A DNA stretch of 38,769 nucleotides, from positions 1-38,769 of the IMG/VR virus record IMGVR_UViG_3300006921_000045. One strand, 5' to 3'. The position numbers and the translations under genes are program-made. Source of the stretch: a virus. The notes under the pieces are model-generated. The model did no database searches and was not told where the DNA came from. It saw only the letters and a program-made list of their open reading frames with translations. Positions 5,800-33,347 of the stretch are shown piece after piece (the first letter of the stretch is position 1; each line of letters begins with the position of its first letter).

Positions 5800-6375
5800 A
5801 TGGAAGAATCAAAAGAATATTACGATGAAGTATACAGGTCTGGGGGAGCTGGATCTGTATACCTACTTCCAGCTGAAGAAGTTAAATTTTATTATCCAAA
5901 TTGGAAAATAGCTCATGATTATATAATAAAACATAAAATCAATAATATAGTAGACCTAGGTTGTGGACCTGGTCATTTTTCAAGTTTGTTTAGTAAATCT
6001 AATATAACAATTAACGCTTATGACTTTTCTAATGAAGCTATTGCACAAGCTAAAAAGCGAAATTCAGAAAATAAAAATACTACTTTTCATGTTGAAGATT
6101 TAAAAAATAGCAACATAAAAGACAAAGGTAATTTCTTTACTGCTTTTGAGTTTTTAGAACACATAGAATGGGACTTAGAAATAATAAGTAAGATGAGTAA
6201 AGGATCTACAATAATATTTAGTGTACCAAGTTACAACGCTAAAGGACATGTAAGATTTTTTAATGATACTAATGAAGTAGAAAACAGATATAACAAATTG
6301 TTAAACTTAAATTTACTTAATGTTCATCAATTTGGAAAACAAAAAATATTTTTATATAAAGGAGATAAAATATGA
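5800..6375 (+). CDS. SAM-dependent class I methyltransferase
   Basis: The glycine-rich SAM-binding motif VDLGCGPG lies at residues 51-58 and is followed by the acidic loop INAYDFSNEAIAQAKKRN (D75) and a motif II/III region (FFTAFEFLEHIEWDLEIISKM, TIIFSVPS). This is the Methyltransf_23/UbiG-like architecture acting on small molecules or sugars; nothing resembles a DNA methyltransferase catalytic motif (no DPPY or PC loop). It starts 3 bases after the RNR stop and its own stop overlaps the glycosyltransferase ATG (ATGA), so it works as a pair with that gene. Likely roles are surface-glycan or nucleotide-sugar modification; the substrate is unknown. Confidence 0.82.
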   Translation: MEESKEYYDEVYRSGGAGSVYLLPAEEVKFYYPNWKIAHDYIIKHKINNIVDLGCGPGHFSSLFSKSNITINAYDFSNEAIAQAKKRNSENKNTTFHVEDLKNSNIKDKGNFFTAFEFLEHIEWDLEIISKMSKGSTIIFSVPSYNAKGHVRFFNDTNEVENRYNKLLNLNLLNVHQFGKQKIFLYKGDKI

Positions 6376-7106
6376 GAACATTATGTATACTTACTATTTA
6401 TAATGAAATTAAATTTCTTCCTTACAAATTACAATACTGCATAGACAATGATCTAGATTTATACGTAATAGATAACATGTCTAATGATGGAAGTTGGGAA
6501 TGGTTACAAGATAACAATATTAAATCTCATAGATTTGATACAGATGGAATGTTTTACTTGAAAGCCTTACAAAAAGAAATGGTAAAAACAGTTCACAAAG
6601 AAAAACCTGATTGGGCAATATATAATGGATGTGATTTATTTCCTATAATAGATGGAAGTTTAGGTAAAAAACTAGAAGAGATCAATAAAGAAGGTTATAA
6701 TTTAGCTACTATAGATTATTTAATGTTATGTAATACTGGAGAAGAACGTTCTAATCCTTTTGCTACATATTTTTATTTCCAAAGTTTAAGAAGTTTAATG
6801 ATGATACATAAGTATGATTCTAATTTTGATTACTATGGAGATGCCGTTAGAATTAGTGCACAAGATAAAATATACAAACTTAACGGAGTAATGCCTAATT
6901 ATGGATGTACTAAAACTAAAGAAGAAAGAGACGAGACCTATGCTAGAAGAAAAAAAGCATGGGATGCTGGTGTAACTTTAAAAGGTCATGGTATACATTA
7001 TAAAGGTGGAAAAGAAATAAATTGGCTATGGGAAAAAGATAAGTTAACAGATATTAGAAATACTAAATATTATAAGTATATTAAAAACGCTAGTTTTTAC
7101 AAATAA
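6372..7106 (+). CDS. GT-A fold glycosyltransferase, family 2-like
   Basis: The N-terminus has the GT-A beginning LCILTIYNEIKFLPYKLQYC followed by the nucleotide-sugar loop LYVIDNMSNDGSWEWL (DNMSNDGS, residues 34-41) and an acidic segment IYNGCDLFPI that can serve as the metal-binding aspartate. The C-terminal half (KLNGVMPNYGCTKTKEERDETYARRKKAWDAG, GHGIHYKGG) resembles the Glyco_tranf_2_4 group. It is the last gene of the plus-strand operon, 4-base overlap with the methyltransferase, and is followed at once by a terminator. It could modify virion or host surface glycans, or less likely DNA bases. Confidence 0.78.
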   Translation: MRTLCILTIYNEIKFLPYKLQYCIDNDLDLYVIDNMSNDGSWEWLQDNNIKSHRFDTDGMFYLKALQKEMVKTVHKEKPDWAIYNGCDLFPIIDGSLGKKLEEINKEGYNLATIDYLMLCNTGEERSNPFATYFYFQSLRSLMMIHKYDSNFDYYGDAVRISAQDKIYKLNGVMPNYGCTKTKEERDETYARRKKAWDAGVTLKGHGIHYKGGKEINWLWEKDKLTDIRNTKYYKYIKNASFYK

Positions 7107-8423: not shown

Positions 8424-9086
8424 TTATATTTTTTTAGCAATTTGTTGATAAATCTCATTATCACTACAGTTTTGATTTAACCATTGTAAACCATCTTTTT
8501 TATCCCAAGGAAACTTTATTTTATGTCCTACTCCTCCTGTTACACCTGTACCATGTTTTATACCTATAGCATATACTTTATCATCAAATTTAATTGTTTT
8601 AACTTTCAAATGTTTCTTAGCATGATTCTTAAATAGGTGTAAATCAAACCAAATGTTTTCATCATGAGGGTAACTATATTTATAAGGTAGTTTTAGTAAA
8701 CAGCAAAATGCAGAAGACCGACCACCATGTACTAAATGTTTAAATTTATTTACTTTTATATGATAATAATATGTTTCTTCTACACCTAATATATCTGGTT
8801 GTTTATTTTTTTCCCACTGATCCAAGATCCATTCAATATATTGCGGGTGATACCAATCATCATCTTCCCATAATAAAACTACATTACAACCTTTCTCCTC
8901 CGCTTCTTTAATACCTTTCTTGTATCTAGCTGACAAATCTTTTTTATCATTAATAGGAGGATAATCTACAACTATAACTTCATCAGGCTTTCTAGTTTGA
9001 TTTTTTATTATATTCCAATACTGATCTTTAAATAAAGGTCTATCTCCTCTAGTTGGTGTTACTAATGCTACTTTTGTGGACCCCAT
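8424..9086 (-). CDS. GT-A fold glycosyltransferase, family 2-like, in the late operon
   Basis: The N-terminal strand KVALVTPTRGDRPLFKDQYWNIIKNQTRKPDEVIVVD is the usual GT2 opening. WEDDDWYHPQYIEW (E74-D77) is the DxD-type metal/nucleotide-sugar motif. A GGRSSAFCCLLK segment and W-FDLHLF (acceptor/base region) follow. It overlaps the end of the 3255-aa gene by 19 bases and immediately precedes the small basic genes. Being within the late operon suggests it glycosylates a virion protein or a host surface structure. It is not closely similar to the early glycosyltransferase at 6372-7106. Confidence 0.8.
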   Translation of the reverse strand: MGSTKVALVTPTRGDRPLFKDQYWNIIKNQTRKPDEVIVVDYPPINDKKDLSARYKKGIKEAEEKGCNVVLLWEDDDWYHPQYIEWILDQWEKNKQPDILGVEETYYYHIKVNKFKHLVHGGRSSAFCCLLKLPYKYSYPHDENIWFDLHLFKNHAKKHLKVKTIKFDDKVYAIGIKHGTGVTGGVGHKIKFPWDKKDGLQWLNQNCSDNEIYQQIAKKI

Positions 9087-12000
9087 GATTTTTCTTTTTT
9101 GTATCCACTAGGTCCCCAACTATCTTTCTTTTTCTCTTTTGTAGGTCCCCAGTTTGAAGTTTCTTTTTTCTTTGCTTCTAAAGTCCATCTTGGCCAGCCT
9201 AATAATAAAGCTATATCCATCCACGCATCTGTTTCTTCTGATAATGCATCTCCTATGTTTTGCATTTTAATTAACAATCTATCTACAGGTACATTTGTTA
9301 CAGCACTTACTACTTTAGCGCCTGCTTCATAAGCTGGATTATCTAAAGCAAATCCTTTGTCAATCATTTCTTGTCTTCTCTTTTTAGAATCAAACTGCCA
9401 TGCTGCTTGCTTAAGTCTATTTACTTTAGAACTTATAACTGGAGACAACTTAAATAATTCCCATAACTGATCTGCATATCGCGGTCGATCTTTTTCTGAT
9501 TCTTTATATATTTTTATACCCATATTTTTAAGTACAGAAAATACATGTCCTCCAATTCCTAATCCTCTTAGAATATTATCAGCAGCTCCATTTGCAGTTC
9601 TCTCTATCTTATCTTCTTTAAAAACAGGATCATCATCATCTTCTCCAAATGCTAATGCAAACATAGCTGAGTGAGCCATTTGAAACCATAAGTTTTGTAC
9701 AACTCCATAATAAACTATTCTACTAACATTTGTTTTAAAATCTCCTCTGTTATTAGCTATATCTTGAATTGCTTTCTTTTGTATTCTTACATACTGCATT
9801 TGAGTATTAGCCCAGTTCAATGTTAATCTTCCTAAAGTACTAGCTTGTTGAGAAGATATTTTATCTGGTCTAGATGATTGCTGATTTTTTTCTGATACTT
9901 CTACAAACTCCTGGTAAGCTTTAGCTCTTGCTTCTTCTTCGCTTAATCCTTTTTTAACTAAATCGTTTATTCTATTTCTATAAAAAGTAGCACCACCAGA
10001 AGCTATTGCAAAACTATCCATAAACTTAGTGGGAGTATATCCTTTTTCTATTATATAACTAACTATTGCTTTAGCTTTGTTTTTAGAAGTCTTAGCACTA
10101 TTTGCAACCTCATCCGCATGTATATCCATTGATAATCCACCCCTTCTGTTAACTAAATAATCAGAGTTCATCAACTCTATAAAATCTTTAGAATATTGTG
10201 GCATGTTACCAAAAGCAACACCAGCTTTAAGAGGATTATTAAAAGACCAGTTCAAGAAATTTACATTTGATATACCTTGTAACAAAGCTGATCTCATGTT
10301 TAAAAACATTACAACTCCTTGGGCATTGTTTAAATAATCTAATACCTGATTAGTAAGTCTATTATTACTAAACGCTCTGTTAGAACCAGATTCCATTCTT
10401 CCTAAAGAATTCTTTAAAGCTTCAATATATTTAGGACCAAATTTAGATTCTAATTTATTTAAGTTTTTCTCAGAAAATATTATGTCTACATTTTCCTTCC
10501 ACTGTTTTAAATATTCTGCTCTTTTTATAGTGTTTAATCCTTCGTACAGATCTGTAGTAATTGTTCCTGCTAACCAATGTTTACCAGGTTCTTTATACTC
10601 ACCTTTGTTTATTTTAATTAACTCTTCAGCAAATAATTTTAATTCAGGATTATTTTCTATTTCTTTATTTATTTCAGCTAAATCAGTTTTACTTAAACCA
10701 GGTACACTCTTTCCTAATTTATCCCAAACAAAAACTCTAATACTATTTTCGTTAGTAAATCCTGTAGAGTTTATTTTTTTAATTGTTTTAGGAGCGATTA
10801 GTGTTTTCTTTAAAGCTCTAAAATCATCCATTAAATTTATTCTAGCAGAATCTAGATCAGTCATTGCTCTTGAAAATGGTTTAAATAAATGTTCTTCAAA
10901 CCACTTATAGTTGGAATCTCCTCTTTTGCCTTTTCCTAGTAAAGGATATATCAACCCTTCAAAATCTTCTGCAGAGTAAGGATGTATTTTTCTTTTTTGA
11001 TTTTGTTTCCCTAACATTTCTCCCTTAGCTTTGCTATAGTCTTTGAACCATTCTATACCAAGCGAATGTTCTAGAATAATGTTAAAATCTCTATCAACAC
11101 TTTCACTGAATTTGAATTTAGCTTGCTGTACTTTTGACTTAACATCTATAACTGACAATGCGTCTTCTACAGCTTTAACATTACCCATATGGTCATCAGC
11201 AAAATAGAAATCATTATAGCCATCCGCAGCTTTTTCTATAACCCATCTAGATTTAGCGAAAGGAGAACTATTACCTAATCCTGTAATATTTTTCAAAGGA
11301 ATTTTCAAACCAACACTATCTAAAAATTCTTTAATAGCTGGTGCAGCTTCTTGAGATCTAGCTGTGAGTACGAATACGTCTTTAGTTCCTCTTGCTTCTT
11401 GAATTAATTTAGCAACTCCAAGTAAAGGTCCTTTACCACCTTGCATTACTTTATTAAACTCTGAAAAATCCCACTTAACTCCTTGAGCTACCATCTCATC
11501 TCCTTTCTTAGCAAACTCTTCAGCAGTTAATTTACCAGTGGTACCATCAGGCATAGTATATAGTACATTACTTTTTGTAGTGGCTAGTGTATCGTCAAAA
11601 TCAAATACTCTAATCTTCTTAACAGGCGCGTTAGGATCTCTTGCTATTTGTAAAGCCTTATCTATAGTTGCTGCATAATTTAGTATCTCATCTGGTTTTA
11701 ACCCGTCCATATCAACAACATCGTTAGATAAAGAAAATTTATTAACATTAGCAGCTTGCTGTTCTTCTTTCCACAACTGAGCTTCTTTCTCTCCAAATAT
11801 TTCTTTAGTTCTAACATCTTCTACAGCGTAAGCAGCTCTACCTCTAGTATATTCATTGTACCATCTTGTAGGCGCAATGTCACCAACCTTGTAAGTGTCT
11901 TGCATTCTATCTCCAAAAAACGTGCTAAAGTTTTCGTTCATGTCTACAGGAATAGCACCTACCGCATATGAATCTTTTAGTTTTTGTAGATTAACATCAC

Positions 12001-15000
12001 TGTCAGGATTGAATACCGCATCAGCAATTAACAAGTTAACTATTTTAGCTGGTATACCATGTTCGTATTCGAAATTTTTATTTCCATCAGAATCTTTTAA
12101 AGTTGTAAACGGTGCGTCAATAGGTCGGTATCTAAAAGGAGCGGCTGCTCTAATTGGTCCTTTCATCATACTACCCATACCTGCCATCAGCATAGCAATA
12201 TTTAACTCATCAGCACTGTCATTTTCTACTACTTCTTTTGCTGCTTTATATTTATCAACAACAAAATCCCAAGCTTCACTTGCTGTTCTTTCTCTAAAAT
12301 CTATTTCCGCTTGAGTCATAGAACCATCTATCATGTTAAGTTCTACTTTCTGAGAGGGACTTGTAGGAAAAACCACTGGTTTAGTACTTGATCCATCTTC
12401 TCTTATAAATTCTAGATATCTAGTAGATTTTCCGTTTTTATCTTTTACATTAAAAGTTTTATAATCTTTGAATCCAAAATTAGGTTTTAAGAAATCAGCT
12501 TTAAACGAACCAATATTTTGATAAAGCATATTTCTTGCTTTCTTTGAAACTACTTCTACACCAGATTGGATCCTAGCCATGTATCTTACTTCTAAAGCAG
12601 CTTGGTCTATTTTAACTTGTTCTGTAACTGGGTTTTGATTACCGTTACTATCATAACCTGCTTTATTTAAAAGTTCTTGTTGAATAGTTCTATTGTCAAA
12701 CTCTCTTTGAAGTACTACATCTGTTGGATTAGAAAAAGCTTGTGCCATTGGCTTTGCATTCCACATTCTTTGAATACTTTCATCTTCAGTTCTATCAACC
12801 TCTCTAGTTATGTACTCATTAATATCTATTTGAATTTCACCAGGCGAGTCAACAGCTTTAGCGTAAGGTCTTAAAAATCTTGTTAAATTCTTTTTAATTG
12901 CACTTCTATACGGAGCGTACTTAGCGTCAGATAACACTACATCCACAGCTAATTTAACTGACATAGGATCAGACACGTTCATGTCGATTATAAGATCTAA
13001 AATATTTGGTTGTAACTTGTTGTAGTCTTCCGCTAGCCTACCTTCCATGCCTACAGATTCAGCCATTGAGAATTTAAATGCAGTACCTCTTCCTATAGAT
13101 AATGCAAAATCTTTTAAAGCTTGTTCACCTAACTGTTCTTTAATAGTTGGGTTATCTTTAGAAATCTCTTCAACAACTTTATCACTAGTTATGTTTTGCA
13201 TAGTAGCGTCTAATCCTAAAACGTTACTAAGTACTTTAGCTAAAGCATTTTTTCTTCCTCTAACATTAAAGAAATCTACAAATTGCTTTTCACTTGGATT
13301 TTTTCTATTATATAAAGTAGGACCTTGAGTTGTTGTTGCTGTAGTTAAATTTCCAGATCCTTCATACTGTTTAACCTCAGTAGGATTTAAAACAGTTCGA
13401 CCAGTTTGTTTATCCATTACTCTGACACTAGTAAATATTTTACTGTCTGGTTTTACTAACCTTTCTAGAGCTACTAGATCTTCAATAGGCAAACGTTTTA
13501 ATAACTCAGTACGATGTTCTTTTAAAAAAGAATCATACACCTTGGCTTTTAAAAATTCTTGTTTAATGGTTTTATCTAGAGCTTGTTGATAACTAGCTTC
13601 TAGCTCTGATTTAACCTTCTTCATTATACCAGCTAAGTCTCTTTCAGTTTGTCTTTTAACTTCACCAGTAGGATTAGTGCTTAATGTTTTTCTAACCTGT
13701 GCAAGAGTTACAGTTTCTCCTTCACCGCTTTTCTTTCTTTGTGTATATTCAAACTTTGGTAAACCTTTTTGCATTACATCTTGAACAGCTGTCATAGCTG
13801 CTGCATACATTGGATCACCTTTCTTTACACCTAATACTTCTCTTAATGTTGTTTCAAATTCTTCTAAAGTAGTATTTTCACTTACTGCTACTCCACTAGC
13901 AGCTTCCAATCCAGTGTCAAATCCTTCATTTTTAGATTCTCTACCTATAATTTTATTAGCTAACTTAACTTTATTAGGTAAGATCTTAGGACTCATTATG
14001 TAAGCATCAAAATCTTTATTTATATTCGGTTTAAAAGCACGAATAGATTTCATTAGTTCTACATTTGTTATAGCAGTAAACTCTTCCAACGCTTCTGAAA
14101 TATCTTGAAATCTCTGATAAGAATCCGTAGCATAATATCCACCTTTTTTAAACAGTGCTTCAATTTTTCCTTCATAAGCTCTAAGAATTTCACCCATAGG
14201 TTTACCACCTTGTGCAGTTTCTAATCTACCTCTGAAAGATCTTTCTATTAAATTAACTCTTTCTTTTCTTGCTGCGTCAGATTCATCTCTTATACTACCT
14301 TCAAATATTGGAACTCTTTCCACAACTGAAGATTCACTTTTAATTTTTTGGTACTTAGCTGTTAATGCCGCTTTCTTAGCTTCATAGTTTTTTACTGGAG
14401 TAACTTTATTGTCAGCAACTAAAGCTAATAAATCTTTCATGATTTGATTAGCGTCTTCAACATCTTTAGTGTCTGAAAATTTATAACTATCTATATTTTC
14501 ATCTAATAATATTGCCGCACTTTCTTCAATTAACCTTTTATATTCACGTTGAGCTTTTTGATATTTCTTTTTAGCTCCTTGTATAACACCTTCTCTCTTC
14601 CATTTAGCTACCATTTCTGGAGTAACTCTACCTTCAGAAACTGCAGTACCTAACTCGTGAAGAAACTTAATAGCACCATTTTGTCCATTAAATTCCATAG
14701 CAGGTTTGTTGTTGTTTTTGAAAATGTTATTAGTTATAAAACCAAAAGAAGAAGAAAGTAATCCGCCTTGTTTGTCTTCAATGTTTATTTTATTTGATCC
14801 GACAAGTTCTAAAAAATTCATTACTACTTCATCTGACTTCTGTAACTCTCTACCTCTTTTTAAAGCTAATCCTTTTAACAACGTAGGATTATTCTTTGAC
14901 ATGTAAGATATTATCTCATCAGCTAAAGGTTTAAATTCTTTAGAGTCATAACCTAATAATTCTCCAAAAATATCATGACCAGCTTCGTGTGTGAATATTT

Positions 15001-18000
15001 GAGTCTCATTGTTTCTTATAGCATTTTCTCTAAACCCTAAAACTTCACTTCTTTTTATAGCTGCTGGATCAGTTGTCAATATACCATCAGAATCAAACGT
15101 CATGTTCCAACCACTTAATCTACCTTCTAACAAACTAGTTATAGCACCTTTGGTTTCTTTTTTATTTACGTTATCCTTAACATCTCTTATTTGTCGTTCT
15201 AGATTGACTACACGAGACTTTTTTTGTTCGTCTGTTAAATCCTTCTTAGCGTTTATTTTCTCCTTAGAAGTCGCGAGAACATCCTCTATGTATGTTAAAG
15301 CCTCTCCATTAGTGTCGAATTTTAAATATCTTTTACCTTTAGATTTATTTTTAGTGACTGATTCAAAGTTTTCATCTATGAGTTCACCTACGTATATTTC
15401 TTCTGCTAATGGTAAAACTTGATCATCTCTTACATTCCCTACGTTATCTTTAGCTAGTTGTGCTTTAGCTTGCTTAATAGTACGGTCGTATCTTTCTTTA
15501 TTAGATGTTTCTAATAATGTAAATTGATTAGAGAAATTTGCCGCACTTCTCCATACATCTCTTTTATATTGTAAGTTGTCAAATCTATCTTTATATACTT
15601 GAAGCAATTTGTTATTAGTATTAGTATTGTCCACTGATAACATATCATTAACAACTTCACTGATGTCTGCTTGCTCGTTCAAAGCTTCTTCAAAGTTATT
15701 ATAAGCACTGTTAGTCATTGTATTTTGAATAGCAGAAAATTTTTCTTCAACAAAAGCTTTTTGTTCTACTTTTAAATCATCAATAACTTTTTGCTTCATC
15801 TTGATAGAAGCTAGATCTTGAGGCACTGCAAATCTTTGTGTTTCATAAACTAACTCTTGTTCAAGTTCGTTTATTTCTTGTTGCCTATTTTTGTATTGTG
15901 AAAAAGAATTGTAATCACTAAATTGCCTAGCAGCAAGTCCGGACATGAAAGGTGTTACACTCATAGCGTGACCAAACATACCTCCTACGAAAGCAGCGTG
16001 ATCTACATTTTCCATTATAGGTCTGCCATCAATAGCATTCTGCGTTATTTGAGTACCAAACTCAGCAGCAGATTCAGCAATAGGACTACTAACTAAAAAC
16101 GCTCCATTTTCTTTAAAATATTGTTTCATTGCATTCCTGTAGCTCAACATGCTAGGTTCTCCTAATCCTTGAACTAGTTTACCACCTCTTCTTAATATAG
16201 GCACAGTGGTTAGTCTTTCAAAAATTCCTTCAGCAGCTCCATAACCAATTGATTGCATACCTTGTATAAACTCATTTTCTACTTTACCAGTTATATATTC
16301 TTTTCTATCTGCATCAGCCCAATGTTGTCCAGCAGAATAAGCACCAATGACCCAAGGAGCAGCAGTACCACCACTAGCAACCATAGTAGCTAAAATAGGT
16401 ATTTGCTTAGAAGTCTCTTGTGCCACAAATCTTCCAAAATTTCCAGGAGAAAAAGCTCCTCCTCTTCCAAATCTATCTTCGTGAAAACTTACTTCTTTAC
16501 CATATTGACTTTTAATTCCTTCTTTCCAAAAACTATAATCATCATACTGATCTGCCCACTCTTTGTCCCATTCATCCCAAAATTCTGTTAAAAAATTACC
16601 ATCATCAGTAAAAGCATTTGCTGCTTGTCCTAACCAAAAAGTAGCTCCATATCCAACAGGTGTATACTTAGCTGCCTTGCCTCCTAAGTAAAGTAATCCA
16701 GTTCCAATATCACTAAATCCCAAACCTAGAGTAGCTAGCGATGAACTCCAAGCGTCATAATTTTTTTCTAATAATTTTATGTTAGACTCTATGTCTCCAA
16801 CTTCATCTTGCAACTCCCAAGCTTTAGACCTACGATCTAACATAGATGTCATTTGGTTATTTCTTCTACTTTTAGCAGCTACATATCCGTTAAAATCTTT
16901 TCTAGAAACTTGCTTACCGTTTCTAAGTGTTACTATATCATCTTCACTTAACCCTTCTATGTTGAAAGAACCTGTAGGATTGTTATAAGTATCTTCAAAC
17001 ATATCTACTATTGCTAAATCTGGAGTAGGTTTATTATAGTTATCTATAGCAGCTTCATTAAGCCCTTGTAAAGCCATAGCTTGATTTAACTTAACATCTT
17101 TAGTAACTATAGCAGCAACAGAAAACAAAGCTTGAGTTCTGTTGTCATTATCAGATTTCCATAGATATTCATTTAAGTTAGCATCTAAAGCGCCATTAAC
17201 GTATTTGTTATGTTCTTTTTGAGCAATATGTGTTTTGATTGTCTCATCATCTAACTTTACACCAGCAGCGTTGTAGGCAGGAGCTAAAGCTTTAACTGTA
17301 TTGTCCCAAGCTTTACTACCTTTTGAAAAAGCCATATATTTGTTTCCAAAATCTATGTCATGTATGATTGCTTTATAACCAGCAGCTTTAGGTCCATAGT
17401 TCGGAAGTCGTAGTTCTCTATCACCATCACGGCCCCATTCACCATGAGTAACTAAAATATCTTTTTTAATTTTACTTTTAGTTTCTTCGCTATCAGGATT
17501 TAATAATTCGTCTTGAGTTATTACTCCTCTTGTAACTAACTCTTCACCGCTATTTGCTAAGTAATCTTCATATGAGTTGTCATGAAATAAAGCTGGATTA
17601 TATTCAAATTTATAACTTACTTTACCGTCCTCATCTTCCACATATTCTCCTACACCATAACTATCAGCTGTTGCTTGTTGGTTGTTGTCCAATCCTATAC
17701 CACCAATAGAAACTTTCTTTTCATTGTATGGTTTTGCTAATAGATCATTATATCTTTGAGCAGTACTTTGAATACTAGATTTAACTTTTTTTAAGTCTAT
17801 ACCATGAGTGTTGATAAAGTTTGCTAATTTAACTTTTTGCTCTGTAATGGTTTTTGTTAAGTCTACATCTTTAGCAATTCCTAAAGGATCTAAACCTCCG
17901 TATATAGTAGTTTTTTTACCATTTGGAGCTGTAACTTCAATAGGATAACCATGAACGTTGTTAAGCATTCCTTCAACTTCATTAACTACTTCGGGTCCTA

Positions 18001-18835
18001 AAATAACGTTACTTGTTCCTTTAAATTTATAGCCAGGATACTGTCTTTCAAGTACTGGTACTAATGTTTTATCGACGCTTCCATCGAACTCAGCACCCAT
18101 TGTCCATAGCTTATTTGCTAACTTATACTCAGTGTCTTTTATACCTTGTGAGCTAGGTGCTCCAAACTGATTTAGATTAACATTGCTTTCTGTGAACATC
18201 CATGAATGAACACCTGTTTGAGGTTTAGCTTCAGTGTCTGTTGTTTGTCTATTATATCTATCTTCTAATTGAGATTGTCCACCATAAACAAATTCTTCAC
18301 CAGCTCTTTGTTCAGATACAACTTCTGAGGGATCACTAATCTCTATAGTTGGATTAGATGTTTCTCCACCTAAATAAGGAATTATTTGTTGCTGCGCAAT
18401 ATTATCTATATTTACACTAGCATTATCTAATCTTCTAGTATTTAATTCTGCGTTTAATCTTTTTAAAGCAGCATCATATTGAGGTATTTTAGCACCATTA
18501 GGTAGGGTTAGTTTTTCTAATTCACCTTGATACCATTGTTGCAAATCTTGATCTAAATCTGAAGCTATAGACTGAGGCGTATTAGGAGTAGAAGGTTCTT
18601 CTAAACCTGTAGTTTCAAAAGGATCATCACCACCTAAGATAGTGGGTGTTACCACTTCAGATAACTCAAAACCTGTAACGAAAGAATCAAAATCAGCAAC
18701 GCTATCATCTAACACCTTGTCACTTACTAAATTAGTATGTAAACTGGTTAAAGCGTCTTTATTGCCATATTGCTTAACAAACTCTTGTAAAGTTCCGTTT
18801 GCTGGAAACTTTCCTAAACGTTGGAGTTCTTGCAT
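9068..18835 (-). CDS. Giant polyvalent-type internal virion protein with zincin-like and HAD phosphatase domains
   Basis: 3255 residues, a quarter of the window, in one open frame. A HEAGH motif at 1283-1287 (TQIFTHEAGHDIFGELLG context) is a zincin-like metallopeptidase signature. A complete HAD-type phosphatase lies at ~2405-2550: DFDDTLA (2412-2418), LTARSQEAAP as motif II, and FYFADDHMGNVKAVE as the last acidic motif. The C-terminal ~400 residues (LNMRSALLQGISNVNFLNW, GRLTLNWANTQMQYVRIQKK, YYGVVQNLWFQMAHSAMFALAFG) match the large polyvalent protein-associated style of phage internal proteins. Glycine-rich hydrophobic stretches near residues 700-745 and 815-850 could insert in membranes during ejection. 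The end carries three WGP repeats. Likely packaged and injected with DNA; no lysozyme motif seen. Confidence 0.78.
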   Translation of the reverse strand: MQELQRLGKFPANGTLQEFVKQYGNKDALTSLHTNLVSDKVLDDSVADFDSFVTGFELSEVVTPTILGGDDPFETTGLEEPSTPNTPQSIASDLDQDLQQWYQGELEKLTLPNGAKIPQYDAALKRLNAELNTRRLDNASVNIDNIAQQQIIPYLGGETSNPTIEISDPSEVVSEQRAGEEFVYGGQSQLEDRYNRQTTDTEAKPQTGVHSWMFTESNVNLNQFGAPSSQGIKDTEYKLANKLWTMGAEFDGSVDKTLVPVLERQYPGYKFKGTSNVILGPEVVNEVEGMLNNVHGYPIEVTAPNGKKTTIYGGLDPLGIAKDVDLTKTITEQKVKLANFINTHGIDLKKVKSSIQSTAQRYNDLLAKPYNEKKVSIGGIGLDNNQQATADSYGVGEYVEDEDGKVSYKFEYNPALFHDNSYEDYLANSGEELVTRGVITQDELLNPDSEETKSKIKKDILVTHGEWGRDGDRELRLPNYGPKAAGYKAIIHDIDFGNKYMAFSKGSKAWDNTVKALAPAYNAAGVKLDDETIKTHIAQKEHNKYVNGALDANLNEYLWKSDNDNRTQALFSVAAIVTKDVKLNQAMALQGLNEAAIDNYNKPTPDLAIVDMFEDTYNNPTGSFNIEGLSEDDIVTLRNGKQVSRKDFNGYVAAKSRRNNQMTSMLDRRSKAWELQDEVGDIESNIKLLEKNYDAWSSSLATLGLGFSDIGTGLLYLGGKAAKYTPVGYGATFWLGQAANAFTDDGNFLTEFWDEWDKEWADQYDDYSFWKEGIKSQYGKEVSFHEDRFGRGGAFSPGNFGRFVAQETSKQIPILATMVASGGTAAPWVIGAYSAGQHWADADRKEYITGKVENEFIQGMQSIGYGAAEGIFERLTTVPILRRGGKLVQGLGEPSMLSYRNAMKQYFKENGAFLVSSPIAESAAEFGTQITQNAIDGRPIMENVDHAAFVGGMFGHAMSVTPFMSGLAARQFSDYNSFSQYKNRQQEINELEQELVYETQRFAVPQDLASIKMKQKVIDDLKVEQKAFVEEKFSAIQNTMTNSAYNNFEEALNEQADISEVVNDMLSVDNTNTNNKLLQVYKDRFDNLQYKRDVWRSAANFSNQFTLLETSNKERYDRTIKQAKAQLAKDNVGNVRDDQVLPLAEEIYVGELIDENFESVTKNKSKGKRYLKFDTNGEALTYIEDVLATSKEKINAKKDLTDEQKKSRVVNLERQIRDVKDNVNKKETKGAITSLLEGRLSGWNMTFDSDGILTTDPAAIKRSEVLGFRENAIRNNETQIFTHEAGHDIFGELLGYDSKEFKPLADEIISYMSKNNPTLLKGLALKRGRELQKSDEVVMNFLELVGSNKINIEDKQGGLLSSSFGFITNNIFKNNNKPAMEFNGQNGAIKFLHELGTAVSEGRVTPEMVAKWKREGVIQGAKKKYQKAQREYKRLIEESAAILLDENIDSYKFSDTKDVEDANQIMKDLLALVADNKVTPVKNYEAKKAALTAKYQKIKSESSVVERVPIFEGSIRDESDAARKERVNLIERSFRGRLETAQGGKPMGEILRAYEGKIEALFKKGGYYATDSYQRFQDISEALEEFTAITNVELMKSIRAFKPNINKDFDAYIMSPKILPNKVKLANKIIGRESKNEGFDTGLEAASGVAVSENTTLEEFETTLREVLGVKKGDPMYAAAMTAVQDVMQKGLPKFEYTQRKKSGEGETVTLAQVRKTLSTNPTGEVKRQTERDLAGIMKKVKSELEASYQQALDKTIKQEFLKAKVYDSFLKEHRTELLKRLPIEDLVALERLVKPDSKIFTSVRVMDKQTGRTVLNPTEVKQYEGSGNLTTATTTQGPTLYNRKNPSEKQFVDFFNVRGRKNALAKVLSNVLGLDATMQNITSDKVVEEISKDNPTIKEQLGEQALKDFALSIGRGTAFKFSMAESVGMEGRLAEDYNKLQPNILDLIIDMNVSDPMSVKLAVDVVLSDAKYAPYRSAIKKNLTRFLRPYAKAVDSPGEIQIDINEYITREVDRTEDESIQRMWNAKPMAQAFSNPTDVVLQREFDNRTIQQELLNKAGYDSNGNQNPVTEQVKIDQAALEVRYMARIQSGVEVVSKKARNMLYQNIGSFKADFLKPNFGFKDYKTFNVKDKNGKSTRYLEFIREDGSSTKPVVFPTSPSQKVELNMIDGSMTQAEIDFRERTASEAWDFVVDKYKAAKEVVENDSADELNIAMLMAGMGSMMKGPIRAAAPFRYRPIDAPFTTLKDSDGNKNFEYEHGIPAKIVNLLIADAVFNPDSDVNLQKLKDSYAVGAIPVDMNENFSTFFGDRMQDTYKVGDIAPTRWYNEYTRGRAAYAVEDVRTKEIFGEKEAQLWKEEQQAANVNKFSLSNDVVDMDGLKPDEILNYAATIDKALQIARDPNAPVKKIRVFDFDDTLATTKSNVLYTMPDGTTGKLTAEEFAKKGDEMVAQGVKWDFSEFNKVMQGGKGPLLGVAKLIQEARGTKDVFVLTARSQEAAPAIKEFLDSVGLKIPLKNITGLGNSSPFAKSRWVIEKAADGYNDFYFADDHMGNVKAVEDALSVIDVKSKVQQAKFKFSESVDRDFNIILEHSLGIEWFKDYSKAKGEMLGKQNQKRKIHPYSAEDFEGLIYPLLGKGKRGDSNYKWFEEHLFKPFSRAMTDLDSARINLMDDFRALKKTLIAPKTIKKINSTGFTNENSIRVFVWDKLGKSVPGLSKTDLAEINKEIENNPELKLFAEELIKINKGEYKEPGKHWLAGTITTDLYEGLNTIKRAEYLKQWKENVDIIFSEKNLNKLESKFGPKYIEALKNSLGRMESGSNRAFSNNRLTNQVLDYLNNAQGVVMFLNMRSALLQGISNVNFLNWSFNNPLKAGVAFGNMPQYSKDFIELMNSDYLVNRRGGLSMDIHADEVANSAKTSKNKAKAIVSYIIEKGYTPTKFMDSFAIASGGATFYRNRINDLVKKGLSEEEARAKAYQEFVEVSEKNQQSSRPDKISSQQASTLGRLTLNWANTQMQYVRIQKKAIQDIANNRGDFKTNVSRIVYYGVVQNLWFQMAHSAMFALAFGEDDDDPVFKEDKIERTANGAADNILRGLGIGGHVFSVLKNMGIKIYKESEKDRPRYADQLWELFKLSPVISSKVNRLKQAAWQFDSKKRRQEMIDKGFALDNPAYEAGAKVVSAVTNVPVDRLLIKMQNIGDALSEETDAWMDIALLLGWPRWTLEAKKKETSNWGPTKEKKKDSWGPSGYKKEKSWGPQK

Positions 18836-18853: not shown

Positions 18854-20587
18854 TTAAGGTTTTAAGTTTGCATCTAACCAACTTGTAACGGTGTTATCAA
18901 GATTATTTTCAGCTAATATTTGTTGGTATAAATCTTCTGGATCTCCTTGTAAATCTTCTAAAGCGAAATTTGAAGGATATACTTTTGATATACCTCCTTT
19001 ATTATCCGGGACTACAGCATACAACTTATTAGGATCGTTAGTTCCATAATTATTATTATTTAACCATTCCCCTGTTTTATATAAATTTTTTACAACATTA
19101 CCAGCACCAGCTTTTGTCTTTTCAATTGAATTTACTAATTTAGCATATTCATCTAATGTAGTTATTTTAAGACCTTCTTGATGATCAGTTGGATCATTCC
19201 AAACTTGTTTATCAAAAGCATTATTAATAGCATTATATGCCGGACGCATATTCATAAATTTCGTTTTTTGTCCAGCTGTATAATCTTTTCCGTCTACAGT
19301 TTTTTGATACCTCTCTACATCTGACTCTGCTGTAGTTACTTCTCCTATAGGCGTTTGTGTAGTATAAAAATTAGCTAACATTTTCTTAGCACTGTTACGT
19401 TGTATAGTATTTAAATCTTCTCTAGTAAGTACATTTTCATAAGTAGGTTGTCCTTTGTCATCTACACCATCACCAGGAGTAGGATCTTCCCATTTCAACT
19501 CATCTATTTTATTAAACTCTTCTAATTGTTTATTACTAACAGTGTTACCAACCATCCAAGGTTGATCAGCTAAAGGCAAAGCATTACCGACATAGTCTTT
19601 ATTATAACCTTCATTTTGCAATTCAAAAAATGTTTGAGGAAAAGAAGATAACTTTGTATCACTTTCTAATTGTGCATTTAAATTATCGTCTGTTTCTAAT
19701 TGTTTATCAAATGCTTCATAATCTAATACTTTTGTTTTTATATGAGACTTGGTTTGTTTGTCATATTTACTTATAACTTTTGTGACAGCAGGATTTAATA
19801 TTTTTGTATCTAAATATTTTTTTTTGAAATTAGCAGCAAGACCAGTTTGTAAGCTTTGATCTGGTTTAACAGTCAAAGCGTCTAGTCCTTTACCAGTTTT
19901 ATTAAACTCATTAACCCATGCATTGACATCTACAGTTCTTACTATGTCTTTACCATTCTCTTGCTGTAAACTCTTACCATTAGTATCTAGCAAATTATAT
20001 GTTAAAATTTGATGTCCATTAGCGTTTTTGCTTACTTTATAATTAGTAGCAGTTCCATTATTTAATTCAGCAGTTCTATCATACCAACCTTTGTACGAAC
20101 CTGTGAGACTGTTATTAGTCAATCTGCCAACACTAGTACCTTGTTTTCTTGCAAGAAGATCACTTTCTACAGCTTTATTATTCATTCCAACTAAATTCGA
20201 AAATGTACCTAAATTATTTACATCTTCCATAGCTATTGCTTTAGCTTCTTTATAAGCTTCTCTATCAGCAGCTGTTCCATTAGAACCATAAGCTTTTATA
20301 TATAAGGTATTTAAATTACTAGCTGCTTTTCCAGCCCACTCTCTATTAGCTGCGTCTGCATCTATAACTCCACTTTTAGCTTTGTTAGCATAAAAATCAT
20401 TAAAATTGGCTTCTATAGCGTCACCTTCTTTTATTAGTTTTTGCCTAGCTTCTTTTTCTTTTTTAAGTCTAGTGCCCAGCATATTCATAGCATTTACGCC
20501 GGCTGCAGTAACAGTTTGAACGTTGTTAGCTAATAAGTCTGGTAATCTACTTAACTGATATTGAGGTAAATTTGGTTGTGTTGCCAT
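18854..20587 (-). CDS. Putative internal virion protein, 577 aa
   Basis: No enzyme motif is recognised. The sequence is alpha-helical and alanine/lysine-rich at the start (NVQTVTAAGVNAMNMLGTRLKKEKEARQKLIKEGDAIE), with long helical segments and little hydrophobic core elsewhere, typical of phage internal/ejection proteins. It lies between the gp14-like small protein and the giant protein, which is where T7-like phages encode gp15-type internal core proteins. Gap to the giant gene is 18 bases. Call is by position and composition only. Confidence 0.6.
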   Translation of the reverse strand: MATQPNLPQYQLSRLPDLLANNVQTVTAAGVNAMNMLGTRLKKEKEARQKLIKEGDAIEANFNDFYANKAKSGVIDADAANREWAGKAASNLNTLYIKAYGSNGTAADREAYKEAKAIAMEDVNNLGTFSNLVGMNNKAVESDLLARKQGTSVGRLTNNSLTGSYKGWYDRTAELNNGTATNYKVSKNANGHQILTYNLLDTNGKSLQQENGKDIVRTVDVNAWVNEFNKTGKGLDALTVKPDQSLQTGLAANFKKKYLDTKILNPAVTKVISKYDKQTKSHIKTKVLDYEAFDKQLETDDNLNAQLESDTKLSSFPQTFFELQNEGYNKDYVGNALPLADQPWMVGNTVSNKQLEEFNKIDELKWEDPTPGDGVDDKGQPTYENVLTREDLNTIQRNSAKKMLANFYTTQTPIGEVTTAESDVERYQKTVDGKDYTAGQKTKFMNMRPAYNAINNAFDKQVWNDPTDHQEGLKITTLDEYAKLVNSIEKTKAGAGNVVKNLYKTGEWLNNNNYGTNDPNKLYAVVPDNKGGISKVYPSNFALEDLQGDPEDLYQQILAENNLDNTVTSWLDANLKP

Positions 20588-20597
20588 TTTTTCTTAA

Positions 20598-21254
20598 TTA
20601 TTTTATTGCTCCTGAACCAACGCCAGCCGATGCTACACTTGCTGATCCACTTAAACCTTGCATCCAAGCTGCAGTACTAGCATCTGAATAAGCCTGTTGT
20701 TGATTTCTAAGAAAGTCAGCTTCTGCTTGAGCTCTGTTTATATCAAATATCTCTCTACTTTCAGCTAATTGCCAAGCTTGTTGTTCAGCGCCAATTGCCA
20801 TTTGGTCAATTTGTAGTTTTTGTGCTTGTAATTGTTGTTCACCTTGAGCACGTAATTTTTGATTTTGTACTTCTTGTTGTTCTATACTAGCTGATATACC
20901 TTGCTTAGACTTTAAAGCAGCATTGGCTAAAGCGGTTGCACTTGCTCCACTACCAGATATAGACATACCTTCTAACATGTTTGCTAATGCTGTGTCACTT
21001 TGTTGTTGTTGAATCTCAGCTGCTTTAGTGGCAACACCTACATTAGCATAAGAATTGTATAATTGTCCCTTTAAAGCTCTAATGTCATTTGCAGCATTAT
21101 AAATATCCTGTCTGTTGTCCACTAAGTTGTCCACATCTTTTTGACCATTGAGCACATCATTCTGCATTTTATTGGCTTTATCGTTCATTATAGCGGCTTG
21201 AATACCACCAATAACTAAGGGTGCTGCAATGGCAGCTACTACTGCAAAACTCAT
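20598..21254 (-). CDS. Putative internal virion protein B (T7 gp14-like position), 218 aa
   Basis: Begins with one hydrophobic segment (MSFAVVAAIAAPLVIGGIQA) and continues as a long Gln/Ala-rich helix with repeated LRAQGEQQLQAQKLQIDQ-type heptads, then a small-residue tail (SGSASVASAGVGSGAIK). This matches the usual look of podovirus internal virion protein B: N-terminal membrane anchor plus coiled coil, likely forming part of the ejection channel in the host envelope. It is 10 bases upstream of the 577-aa gene. Function inferred from architecture and position. Confidence 0.68.
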   Translation of the reverse strand: MSFAVVAAIAAPLVIGGIQAAIMNDKANKMQNDVLNGQKDVDNLVDNRQDIYNAANDIRALKGQLYNSYANVGVATKAAEIQQQQSDTALANMLEGMSISGSGASATALANAALKSKQGISASIEQQEVQNQKLRAQGEQQLQAQKLQIDQMAIGAEQQAWQLAESREIFDINRAQAEADFLRNQQQAYSDASTAAWMQGLSGSASVASAGVGSGAIK

Positions 21255-21732: not shown

Positions 21733-23448
21733 TTAAGATGATTGTACTACATTAGAACCTACGCTCCACAATTCTTTTTCACCACCAACATCTGTAGTTG
21801 AATCTGTAGACATAGATACAGTAACAAAATATCCTTTTAAACCTGTCATACTTGTATTATTAATAACTTGACCCGGGACATTTTGACCTATATTGTTTAT
21901 CTGACTAACATATAGGTTTTCTTTTCTATCAAAACCTGCGTGAAAAACATTTCCTATAACATCAACATACTCCCCTTCTAGGTAACTTCTTATTAGAGCA
22001 CTGTTGTCACTATAAGTATTCCATGTTATATTAGACATTTCCATAAGACGCGTAAATTTCTGTTCACTAGAGACAATGTTATCAATTTGCCAACCATTAT
22101 CTCCTTCATAATTTACTGTTTTAAAAACTTTTTTAGTAGATGGCTGATCGTTCAGCACAAACACAACACCAGCTTTATATTGTTTTTCATAATAATTAGC
22201 ATGTAAACTTCCTTGATAATGTTGATAAATGCTATTATTTATAGTGGTAAAAAACTTTCCATTTACAGAAAACATTTCGGTAGGCTTATATGAAAAGAAA
22301 CTCACCCAACCTAAAACAGTTTCATCAAAACTGATGGTTTTCTTAAAATTTTCTTCAACAGTGACCCAAGTTGGTTTTTCTTGCAAAGACAAGGTGTAAT
22401 ATTTATTATAATTATCCCACTCTCCTAAAAGCTTTGGCTTATAAGAGCCTACAAAAACTCCTTCTTCTGTCAACAAAATAGGTTTATTGAACTGAATTAA
22501 ACTAGTAGGAGGAGAACCTGGAAGTGTAATAATACTTTCTACAAACGCCCCTGTATCTGTGTATTCATTAATACCAGTTAGTGTAGATATTTTCATACCA
22601 GGAAACACTTCACAAACTAAATCAGCATCAACTTCAAAAGATGTTTCATATTCCGGAGGTGAAGTAACAGGAGATAAAGACGTCCATGGAATAGAAAAAC
22701 TTTTAGTTTGATTATTAAAGTTGTTTAATTCATCTCTAAAATAATCTTTCATTCCGTATTTAGAAATTTCTGTTAATCCATCTCTAGATAATCTCATCAC
22801 CGTGTTATTGTTAGGATCTACAAAATATTTTCTCATCCCAAAATATCCAAATGATTCTGGATTTTTACCTATTCCATATTTACCTAAATAAGGTACTACT
22901 TGTCCCAAAACTAAAGTATTAGAACTTACAGGAGTACCTTCTCCTTCAGCAGAATATAAAGCATCTTTGTCTATTAATACTTTGCTTACTTTGTTTTCTT
23001 GAAATATAGTTAAGTTAGTATCTTCAGCAAAGGTTTTCTGAATAGATCCATTTGCGGGATCTAAACTTTTTGTAATTTCTTGCCCAACAGAAAATACATT
23101 GGTTTGGTTAAAATCTCTATTAGGATTGTATGGTCCAGAATAAATTAATGAAGCGGATCTATTTCTTTGAATAGGGTTAACTAAATTTAAGTATGCTCTA
23201 TTTCCTAAACTCATAGCATCTTCATTAAATCCTCCTTTAATTCTTGTTTCTTCTATAAACCAATTATTTAAATCTGCAAAGTCAGCTTGTCCAGGAAATT
23301 GAGGATACCCACTCGGTGCTATATCATCTGGTAACCCAGGCCACACAGGTTTATCATCTCTAACAGGAGGTGATCCAATATTTAAATCTGCTTCGATTTT
23401 TTTTAACCAAAAAGAATTGTAGTATTTAACGGGAATAATAAAACTCAT
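21733..23448 (-). CDS. Tail nozzle-type structural protein, C-terminal partner (571 aa)
   Basis: A beta-rich protein with the segment ETRIKGGFNEDAMSLGNRAY, then ASLIYSGPYNPNRDFNQTNVFSVGQEITKSLDPANGSIQKTFAEDTNLTIFQENKV (described in parts) and RDGLTEISKYGMKDYFRDEL. From memory this set recurs in marine podovirus structural proteins annotated as tail/nozzle. Blade-like repeats of W/F-rich strands suggest a beta-propeller. It follows the 1423-aa gene by 9 bases, and the two may together form what is one nozzle protein in other phages. No adhesin repeats are seen. Confidence 0.65.
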   Translation of the reverse strand: MSFIIPVKYYNSFWLKKIEADLNIGSPPVRDDKPVWPGLPDDIAPSGYPQFPGQADFADLNNWFIEETRIKGGFNEDAMSLGNRAYLNLVNPIQRNRSASLIYSGPYNPNRDFNQTNVFSVGQEITKSLDPANGSIQKTFAEDTNLTIFQENKVSKVLIDKDALYSAEGEGTPVSSNTLVLGQVVPYLGKYGIGKNPESFGYFGMRKYFVDPNNNTVMRLSRDGLTEISKYGMKDYFRDELNNFNNQTKSFSIPWTSLSPVTSPPEYETSFEVDADLVCEVFPGMKISTLTGINEYTDTGAFVESIITLPGSPPTSLIQFNKPILLTEEGVFVGSYKPKLLGEWDNYNKYYTLSLQEKPTWVTVEENFKKTISFDETVLGWVSFFSYKPTEMFSVNGKFFTTINNSIYQHYQGSLHANYYEKQYKAGVVFVLNDQPSTKKVFKTVNYEGDNGWQIDNIVSSEQKFTRLMEMSNITWNTYSDNSALIRSYLEGEYVDVIGNVFHAGFDRKENLYVSQINNIGQNVPGQVINNTSMTGLKGYFVTVSMSTDSTTDVGGEKELWSVGSNVVQSS

Positions 23449-23457
23449 AACTTTAAA

Positions 23458-27729: not shown

Positions 27730-27733
27730 TTAA

Positions 27734-28900
27734 TTAATGTTTAATCCATTTAGATTTTCCTCTCATTACTTGAGTAAATTCTCCTAGCTTAATGTTTTGT
27801 AATCTTATTTTAGCATTTCGTAGAGTTGCTCTTCTATCTTTTTTAAATCTTTGTACGATGTGTTCTGGTATGTTTCTTCGTGTAGATAAAATGCTATAAG
27901 CAATATGCATGTACATAGCTTCTTCGGCCATCTTAGGAACCTTAGTATCTTTGTCTAATGCTAGACCATCTGATATATACGAAAAGGTTATTAATGCTCC
28001 TTGTAAACTACTAGAAAAAGACATTGTCCCTGTTCTTTCGTTAATTGTAAACCAGCCGTTCATTTGAGCTGTTTGAGGAGTTAAGCCATACATTCTTCCA
28101 TACCAATTTAAAGATGGATAATATCCCCAATAATCTCCCCATGGATAGTTTTGCCAATTTTGAGCCCAATCCCATTGTTGGTTTTTCCAACGTTCTTCTA
28201 CTAATGATTGAGCGGCTTCATTGTTATTACTAAATGAGTTTTGTGTTGGTATGCCTTGATCATCTTGTAAAGGTAGTTCAGTAGGGTTAGAAGTTAAAAC
28301 TGTAGGATATATTATTCTTTCTACTCCACCACCATCTACCCAAGATAATTTCACATAATTAACATAATCTTGTGGAAGAGGCAATGAGCAGCTAGGAGGT
28401 ATAGTTAATTCTTGAGAGTTAACACTTTTTAAAGTATCATAACTAAATTCTTGTAATCCTCTTTTAGCATGAAACAATACATCAGTTCTTCTTACTCTAG
28501 GTATTATATTATCAGGGCCAACATATGCTACTAAAAAGTTATCTATAACATCATTTAGTTTTATATATTCATACCCACCATAATTGTCTTCTACCGTAGG
28601 TACTGTTAACTGAATAACCACATTAGAACTTACAACACCTATTCCATTTGGCCAAGTTATTTGACTACCATTAGGTGCAGAAATATAAGATTCGTTTTGT
28701 GGTATTAACGTAGAATTACCAGCTAAGTCTATAACATAAATATTATAATTTGAAGCTTCTGCAATTTGATTACCAGAAAAATCAAAAGCACTAATCAAAG
28801 GCGTGTTAAAGCCTACGTTGTAAATGTCTTGTCCAGCAGAAACCCAAAAAGGTTGTTGACCAGAGTAGTATTGTGCATTAGTTTCAGTTAGTAAACCCAT
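27734..28900 (-). CDS. Head-tail connector / tail-tube protein candidate, 388 aa
   Basis: N-terminal half is beta-rich with an Ig-like or carbohydrate-binding look (QQPFWVSAGQDIYNV, SQITWPNGIGVVSSNVVIQLTVP). The segment VRRTDVLFHAKRGLQEFSYDTLKSV is typical of the helical adaptor part of phage head-tail connectors. A W/N/Y-rich insert lies at ~235-265 (WKNQQWDWAQNW, WGDYWGYYPSLNWYGR). The end is a basic helix (FKKDRRATLRNAKIRLQNIK). Located between two other structural proteins, 5 bases from the nozzle gene. Adaptor versus tube role cannot be decided from sequence alone. Confidence 0.6.
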   Translation of the reverse strand: MGLLTETNAQYYSGQQPFWVSAGQDIYNVGFNTPLISAFDFSGNQIAEASNYNIYVIDLAGNSTLIPQNESYISAPNGSQITWPNGIGVVSSNVVIQLTVPTVEDNYGGYEYIKLNDVIDNFLVAYVGPDNIIPRVRRTDVLFHAKRGLQEFSYDTLKSVNSQELTIPPSCSLPLPQDYVNYVKLSWVDGGGVERIIYPTVLTSNPTELPLQDDQGIPTQNSFSNNNEAAQSLVEERWKNQQWDWAQNWQNYPWGDYWGYYPSLNWYGRMYGLTPQTAQMNGWFTINERTGTMSFSSSLQGALITFSYISDGLALDKDTKVPKMAEEAMYMHIAYSILSTRRNIPEHIVQRFKKDRRATLRNAKIRLQNIKLGEFTQVMRGKSKWIKH

Positions 28901-28903
28901 ATC

Positions 28904-29710: not shown

Positions 29711-29721
29711 TTGTAATATTT

Positions 29722-29757
29722 TAAAAAAAAAGCGGCGCAAGGGCCGCCTTTATTATT
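29722..29757 (-). terminator. Intrinsic terminator upstream of the connector/tail genes
   Basis: On the minus strand, GCGGC pairs with GCCGC around a 6-base loop (CCTTGC), extended by a G-T and A-T pairs, followed by a run of nine T. Arms lie at 29732-29736 and 29743-29747. It follows the stop of the 29766-30521 gene. Confidence 0.85.
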
Positions 29758-29765
29758 ATCACACG

Positions 29766-30521: not shown

Positions 30522-30534
30522 AATATAATATAAT

Positions 30535-30570: not shown

Positions 30571-30581
30571 AAAGGTTATTA

Positions 30582-32126: not shown

Positions 32127-32143
32127 AATTTTAAATTTTTAAG

Positions 32144-33325: not shown

Positions 33326-33347
33326 AATATAATATAATAATTAATAA

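Follow-up and report, generated by a model that had tools for sequence, protein, structure and literature searches.

Polyvalent proteins, as set out by Iyer et al. 2017 (PMC5512222), are giant phage polypeptides encoded in virion operons that carry a zincin MPTase together with exchangeable enzymatic domains, including ADP-ribosyltransferase (ART) domains. For the MPTase, the study offers host cleavage as one option, and it describes the N4 virion RNA polymerase as having an MPTase and being packaged unprocessed. Some polyvalent proteins that are injected have been suggested to include enzymes acting on signals, and healing of RNA ends has been suggested for the PNK-HAD and 'Swiss-army-knife' HAD phosphatases of jumbo phages, which occur as PNK fusions or on their own (PMC7824862). 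For crAss001, a Bacteroidota podovirus, large cargo proteins are proposed to leave through the tail (PMC10172136).

Here, we analyzed a stretch of 38,769 nucleotides (IMG/VR record IMGVR_UViG_3300006921_000045; hereafter, the window) from an uncultured marine Bacteroidota podovirus. The giant protein that it encodes, probably a component of the virus particle that enters the host with the DNA, combines a conserved protease-like site with a phosphatase, relatives of which contain an inserted polynucleotide-kinase-like domain; this suggests that an enzyme for repair or counter-defence is delivered at infection.

Organization of the giant protein

The 3255-aa frame at 9068–18835 was confirmed as a single open frame from an ATG start through the stop codon, and it lies on the minus strand, as do all features described below; the strand was absent from the preliminary description. 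It is the final gene of the virion operon. The two preceding genes (577 and 218 aa; 18854–21254) are syntenic with gp100/gp099 of Cellulophaga phage phi38:1 and with elemovirus genes, and the remaining operon at 21733–37988 contains tail, connector, capsid, portal, and terminase genes. More than 140 contigs of uncultured viruses encode relatives of the giant protein. The HAD domain served as bait for the first 80 relatives, which carry a selection bias; frequencies were taken instead from the sets collected with the C-terminus and with the portal as baits. The parts constant among the relatives were the zincin-like domain and the C-terminus. The HAD domain was common (61 of the 75 relatives picked by the C-terminus), and its absence from the other 14 indicates that it is not essential.

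The N-terminal part (residues 1–676; 16808–18835) was very variable among the relatives, with a conservation of 0.11–0.19, and had no family match. A PHROG search with residues 1–1179 yielded no match, and scanning 46 relatives against Pfam in their N-terminal parts yielded nothing beyond scattered weak matches. The following Gly/Ala-rich region (residues 677–1038; 15722–16807) is common to phi38:1 gp101 and Gundel_1 gp074, with 22–29% identity and pairwise E-values of 4e-10 and 1e-10, and is a candidate ejection or membrane-interacting region. The preliminary description had noted glycine-rich membrane-like stretches. Gly/Ala-rich parts do exist (residues 695–740 contain 20% G), but a clear transmembrane score was found nowhere: the mean of 19-residue Kyte-Doolittle windows never exceeded 1.46 (at 812), and true membrane segments were not supported.

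The C-terminal region of about 600 aa (residues 2600–3210; 9206–11038) is well conserved, mostly helical, and retained where the HAD domain is missing. Within it, residues 2888–3073 weakly match gp074 of the Tenacibaculum phage Gundel_1 (E 1e-4). A polyvalent-type C-terminus in the sense of a named domain was not supported: Pfam, LPD38 included, gave no match to this region, nor did it match the C-termini of 33 relatives. PDB sequence searches with the HAD domain and the C-terminus as queries returned no matches. The tripeptide KFS was considered as a processing site at domain borders and rejected: it was found 80 times upstream of the HAD domain against 37 expected, and several other tripeptides equaled or exceeded this ratio.

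The zincin-like metallopeptidase domain (residues 1202–1350; 14786–15232) is supported by its invariant H, E, H, and E residues, the modeled secondary structure, and the published MPTase description. HEAGH is located at residues 1283–1287 (14975–14989), exactly where it had been reported. One such protein would be expected by composition to contain 0.016 HExxH, and of the 143 distinct giant proteins related to it, 136 had the motif, 135 of them exactly once, against 0.65 expected; all 14 relatives without the HAD domain retained it. In an alignment of 49 sequences over a 1200-residue region with 14% mean identity, H1283, E1284, H1287, and E1336 were the only invariant columns. E1336 (14828–14830), the predicted third zinc ligand, lies within a modeled helix, and its columns recur in alignments A4–A6. 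The modeled order around the site (a helix, three strands, the HExxH helix, and the Glu helix) agrees with the published MPTase description (PMC5512222), and fold comparison of the zincin model returned nothing significant. Judged from the sequences, the conserved H, E, and H with the downstream E constitute a zinc-peptidase site, for which peptidase activity is predicted.

HAD phosphatase module and its cap-loop inserts

The HAD phosphatase domain spans residues 2395–2594 (11054–11653). DFDDT, expected 0.002 times by composition in one such protein, forms motif I at residues 2412–2416 (11588–11602), as previously described, and is followed by LTAR at 2490–2493 (motif II with T2491; 11357–11368), K2528 (motif III; 11252–11254), and D2547–D2548 (motif IV; 11192–11197). 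D2412, D2414, T2491, K2528, D2547, and D2548 were invariant in all 39 aligned domains, in agreement with the earlier designation as a full HAD phosphatase, and these six catalytic positions were retained in at least 58 of 62 members of the set picked by the C-terminus. A HAD Rossmann-like fold was also present in the structure model, residues 66–233 of which align with the HAD-fold proteins heading the list. Foldseek alone gave nothing below E 0.001 for the 926-residue model, and the HAD fold became clear only after structural re-ranking, in which Pnkp1 (4xru, Z 11.5) was first and T4 Pnkp (2ia5, Z 10.7) was second; other HAD folds lay within 1 Z unit of the top (e.g., Nir2 LNS2, Z 10.5). The preliminary picture was borne out in that one large protein, encoded at the end of the virion operon, contains both a site of the zincin type and a true HAD phosphatase.

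PHROG 415 ('polynucleotide kinase') matched the HAD domain with E 1e-10, and, compared with just the phosphatase of T4 PseT, its profile matched in motif I only. Together with the structure ranking and the kinase found within the HAD domain of relatives, the PHROG 415 match favors the earlier guess of a polynucleotide kinase-phosphatase-like activity and suggests that the HAD domain is of the polynucleotide kinase-phosphatase type, with a predicted 3'-phosphatase activity; removal of signal nucleotides is a less likely possibility. Matches of the HAD domain in bacterial genomes were contigs in metagenome bins, many of them with the same giant proteins, and are therefore probably viral contigs.

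Relatives carry inserts at residues 2430–2433 (11537–11548), in the cap loop of the HAD domain. At least seven (our labels L213, L223, L228, L253, L234, and both G014 proteins) have a P-loop polynucleotide-kinase-like domain there, three have an ART-like domain at the same site, and an insert of 46 aa was also found; the P-loop 5'-kinase domain is absent from the window's own giant protein. The kinase insert matched Pfam AAA_33 (E 3e-18), PHROG 505 polynucleotide kinase (E 2e-13), and Zeta_toxin (E 4e-13), and zeta and PezT were among its weak PDB matches. It aligned over the entire T4 PseT kinase, lid region included (pairwise E 7e-8). In 25 long genomes, AAA_33 was confined to the giant proteins. 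On a FastTree tree, the kinase label required six changes, at least two of which were forced by well supported branches versus other labeled groups, and several gains or transfers of the insert are likely on this basis. The kinase insert within the HAD cap and the ART-like insert at the same site are new here, as are the constancy of the zincin and C-terminus alongside a common HAD domain and the tagged stand-alone HAD relatives described below. One phage polypeptide can contain several unrelated enzymatic domains, namely zincin and HAD in the window's protein, to which relatives add the kinase, the ART-like domain, and further inserts; these swappable domains and the MPTase hub support the polyvalent organization suggested previously.

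Ligases were considered as partners of the HAD domain. A phage ATP-dependent DNA ligase was present in 19 of 25 related genomes, yet it also occurred where the giant protein lacks the HAD domain, and it was rejected as a specific partner. RNA ligase was likewise rejected: none exceeded the cut-off in the 25 long genomes, and the two sub-threshold matches overlapped DNA-ligase matches.

Stand-alone relatives of the HAD domain in a T4-like phage bear an N-terminal tag (MIKLTELLEE) resembling that of T4 Alt, which is an injected protein; two neighboring ART-like genes also encode this tag. Among stand-alone relatives, distant ones match DUF2608 and, with E 6e-7, the acid phosphatase B family (Acid_phosphat_B), and the latter match makes a nucleotidase possible.

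Proposed delivery and rival readings

The reading that we propose, with a probability of roughly 0.5, is that of a polyvalent protein of the phage type, which travels in the virion and enters the host at infection, where its HAD domain heals 3'-ends. The gene, motifs, conservation, domain exchange, and inserts underlying it come from sequence analysis. The presence of the protein in the virion is probable from gene order and from the structural annotation of syntenic proteins in phi38:1, Gundel_1, and elemoviruses, and the Alt-like tag of the stand-alone HAD relatives also speaks for delivery. The Gly/Ala-rich region, the zincin-like metallopeptidase, and the helical C-terminus would form a constant frame with enzymatic modules slotted in. 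The giant protein would be packed with head or tail cargo and leave through the tail ahead of the DNA or together with it. Cleavage of the polyprotein by the zincin, whether inside the head or after entry into the host, would release the modules. The HAD domain would then strip 3'- (or 2',3'-) phosphates from nucleic-acid ends cut by host nucleases, leaving ends usable by a ligase or polymerase; in some relatives, the 5'-kinase domain in the HAD cap would complete end-healing.

Alternatively, the HAD domain may be a signal phosphatase or nucleotidase that, once injected, dephosphorylates alarmones, free nucleotides, or second messengers of defence rather than nucleic-acid ends. The Acid_phosphat_B and DUF2608 matches, the HAD folds of many specificities ranking closely after Pnkp, and the signal-targeting enzymes proposed in injected polyvalent proteins are in line with this, but the domain recurrently fused to the HAD domain is a polynucleotide-kinase-like P-loop, and PHROG 415 and the two top-ranked structures represent end-healing enzymes; we regard this alternative as rather unlikely. 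A related objection, somewhat less improbable, is that the cap kinase is a zeta-toxin-like or other AAA_33 enzyme that is uninformative on the HAD substrate, the cap being merely a permissive insertion site. The Zeta_toxin, zeta, and PezT matches and the acceptance of ART-like and 46-aa inserts at this site fit this idea; against it are the good AAA_33 and PHROG 505 matches and the alignment over the whole T4 PseT kinase with its lid region.

It is conceivable, if doubtful, that the zincin is an effector cutting a host defence or regulatory protein, with the giant protein remaining whole. As the most constant enzymatic part, it is retained even after loss of other modules, and host cleavage and the unprocessed N4 virion RNA polymerase mentioned above are compatible with such a role. 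Release of parts would, however, benefit such modular proteins, and the present data point to no host target. A further possibility, that the long protein is structural (tape-measure-like or internal), lacks enzymatic function, and contains the motifs by chance, is highly improbable: although most of the giant protein has no family match, the catalytic residues are invariant across more than 60 diverged viruses and the model has a HAD fold, so that conservation contradicts this explanation.

Nuclease-based defences, such as anticodon nucleases, HEPN and other RNases, and DNA-cutting systems, act immediately upon infection, and the phage repair enzymes known to us need synthesis first. If the end-healing reading is true, an enzyme delivered with the virion would allow nuclease damage to be repaired before phage gene expression, closing the gap between immediate defence and repair-enzyme synthesis, and the unexplained giant virion proteins that form a large class in common marine viruses would gain a function. 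We tentatively envisage that uncultured marine phages bring with their virions an enzyme that heals the ends of broken nucleic acids, and do so in two ways: as a module of a self-processing giant protein in one lineage, with the kinase nested in the phosphatase cap in some members, and, in T4-like phages, as an internal head protein of its own that carries a tag and occurs beside ADP-ribosyltransferases. The nested layout and the effector set common to two unrelated virion types lead to clear testable predictions.

Comparison with known systems

The giant protein resembles the polyvalent proteins of Iyer et al. 2017 (PMC5512222) in its size, zincin MPTase, exchangeable enzymatic domains, including ART, and virion-operon context. 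It differs from them in that no Pfam LPD domain was detected and in the HAD module, which is present in most members of this lineage and absent from the available part of their account; the word 'phosphatase' appears nowhere in the text of their paper. T4 PseT and bacterial Pnkp1 provide the nearest-ranked HAD 3'-phosphatase fold and, like some relatives, combine kinase and HAD in one polypeptide. However, PseT is a separate gene with the kinase N-terminal to the HAD domain, whereas in the present lineage the kinase is nested in the HAD cap loop of a virion-operon giant and is missing from the window's own protein. The jumbo-phage HADs (PMC7824862) usually have an N-terminal PNK or are stand-alone, and are congruent with RNA ligases; here, 0 of 25 genomes had an RNA ligase over the cut-off, and virion delivery is indicated. 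T4 internal proteins and Alt carry a capsid targeting sequence (PMC3012670) similar to the tag on the stand-alone HAD relatives and their ART-like neighbors in a T4-like phage; the window's protein, a giant of the ejection type, has no such tag. The crAss001 cargo, compared by description, consists of RNA polymerase and channel proteins (PMC10172136).

At the sensitivity of tblastn, none of 50,697 phage records contained a HAD of this kind, and phi38:1 gp101, Gundel_1 gp074, elemovirus gp91, and the ctfjg026 giant protein all lack it. These four are nevertheless encoded at the virion operon's end or close to it; the Gundel_1, elemovirus, and ctfjg026 proteins have the zincin motifs, and gp101 and gp074 are weakly similar to the window's protein in the Gly/Ala-rich region, with gp074 also similar in part of the C-terminus.

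Giant protein and its HAD phosphatase domain

The 38.8-kb virus carries terminase, portal, and capsid genes that match PHROG families. Its portal was 41–50% identical to those of Flavobacterium elemoviruses, Maribacter phage Panino, and the uncultured podovirus ctfjg026, which points to a marine member of the Bacteroidota as the probable host. The 3255-aa frame of the preliminary description was confirmed at 9068–18835 on the minus strand, downstream of the other virion genes. The equivalent gene position is occupied by giant proteins annotated as structural in the phages phi38:1 (gp101) and Gundel_1 (gp074) and in an elemovirus (gp91, 3694 aa), and by a 3859-aa protein with an uninformative name in ctfjg026. 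Sequences resembling, by eye, a methyltransferase and two glycosyltransferase-type proteins adjoin the virion operon (5800–7106 and 8424–9086).

The full HAD phosphatase with DFDDT proposed for this protein was borne out. All four HAD motifs were found within residues 2395–2594, and D2412, D2414, T2491, K2528, D2547, and D2548 were conserved across 39 aligned HAD domains. PHROG 415 "polynucleotide kinase" matched the domain (E = 1e-10). A 926-residue model (pLDDT 74.5) aligned best to Pnkp1 (4xru; Z 11.5, 127 residues, 3.0 Å) and then to T4 Pnkp (2ia5; Z 10.7, 112 residues, 2.6 Å). This order is suggestive and not decisive, because Nir2 comes right behind with a Z of 10.5.

Relatives and the zincin site

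Relatives were collected with HAD, portal, and C-terminus baits. The HAD bait yielded 80 contigs, nearly all complete enough to reveal a giant protein of 2331–4686 aa; VFDFDDT occurred in all of these giants and HExxH in most. The longest (L040, 4686 aa) has an extra stretch of about 900 aa immediately after the HAD. Since the HAD-baited choice was biased, the other two baits were added. Nine of 10 portal-baited records with enough sequence past the portal contained the HAD, the exception being the genome G029. Among 75 informative C-terminus-baited proteins, 61 had the HAD and 73 had HExxH, which was retained in all 14 HAD-less proteins. The DDTKDD reading was obtained for 58 of the 62 HADs in this set; in two of the other four (L182 and L208), the catalytic residues were present by eye, and the odd readings stem from overlapping matches. 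In contigs L234 and L218, the C-terminal 470–630 aa or so lie on a separate frame, reflecting a split gene or sequencing error. This HAD was found in no cultured phage at tblastn sensitivity.

The zincin-like motif claimed earlier held as a site, and its fold has only indirect support. In a 49-sequence alignment of residues 1050–2249 (14% mean identity), only H1283, E1284, H1287, and E1336 were invariant, and these columns recurred in independent sets of N-terminal parts, together with the start Met or one Ala. The sequence thus argues well for the site. EELFH replaces HExxH in five relatives (L016, L024, L034, L012, and L072), changing the first zinc-binding His to Glu. In the region's model (mean pLDDT 68), one helix and three short strands precede the HExxH helix, and E1336 sits on the helix after it, the order outlined for polyvalent MPTases (PMC5512222). 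Fold searches gave no significant match.

Inserts and exchange of modules

Several relatives have their HAD split by an insert that sits after motif I and before the following strand, at the cap insertion point of the HAD superfamily. In L213, L223, L228, L253, L234, and both giants of G014, the insert is a P-loop kinase of about 200 aa, which matched AAA_33 (E = 3e-18) and Zeta_toxin (4e-13) in Pfam and polynucleotide kinase PHROG 505 (2e-13), and aligned full-length to the T4 PseT kinase (pairwise E = 7e-8). The two different G014 giants lie on opposite strands of a single 50-kb contig (L169:2574–12944, plus; L170:1289–11860, minus); either the assembly is chimeric or the gene is truly duplicated. 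L077, G022, and G024 carry an ART-PolyVal-like insert (E = 1e-4 to 9e-4, under the Pfam cut-off), and five further relatives a 46-aa insert. L002, L068, L040, and others have additional domains behind the HAD that look GNAT-like by eye. HAD-less relatives (L217, L240, L249, and L171 of G029) have different sequences before the C-terminus, some PD-(D/E)XK-nuclease-like or GNAT-like by eye. The C-terminal tree required six changes for the kinase label and six for HAD loss. This is how a polyvalent protein with swappable cargo behaves.

Predicted function and comparison with known systems

On our best reading, the polyvalent protein would travel in the virion and be delivered to the host, the zincin would process it, and the HAD would heal 3′ ends of broken nucleic acid, with packaging, cleavage, and substrate all predicted. 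In 25 long related genomes, no RNA ligase exceeded the cut-off and 19 encoded an ATP-dependent DNA ligase, which mildly favors DNA ends as the substrate, or reliance on host RNA ligases; DNA ligase presence was not tied to the HAD. The chief rival is a nucleotidase or signal phosphatase, since distant stand-alone HAD relatives match the acid phosphatase B family.

L265 and L271/L272 encode separate HAD proteins of about 180 aa (about 40% identical), and L281 and L282 encode more distant ones (28–30%). The N-termini of all five follow the pattern M-x-x-hydrophobic-x-E-hydrophobic-hydrophobic-x-E, exactly or nearly, and resemble that of T4 Alt (MELITELFDE), a protein annotated as entering the host along with DNA. 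Among the genes of the 177-kb L271 record are T4-type gp23 (E = 8e-65) and an S77 prohead protease (8e-31), and at L271:799–3552 four tagged genes adjoin in the order ART-PolyVal-like, unknown, ART-PolyVal-like, and HAD; the tag pattern fitted none of 190 internal Met residues. Three small genes at L265:1602–3671 also carry the tag. The products of these clusters are candidate injected effectors of a T4-like phage. With HAD and ART-like domains in giants and as tagged genes in a T4-like phage, one pair thus occurs in two types of delivery architecture.

Open papers yielded no description of a HAD phosphatase as a main polyvalent-protein module, a kinase embedded within that phosphatase's cap, or tagged stand-alone HADs in T4-like phages, which is a weak negative. 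Polyvalent proteins with their MPTases (PMC5512222) and the PNK-HAD RNA-repair enzymes of phages (PMC7824862) are already known, and T4 internal proteins are varied anti-defense proteins with nothing in common but such a targeting sequence (PMC3012670).
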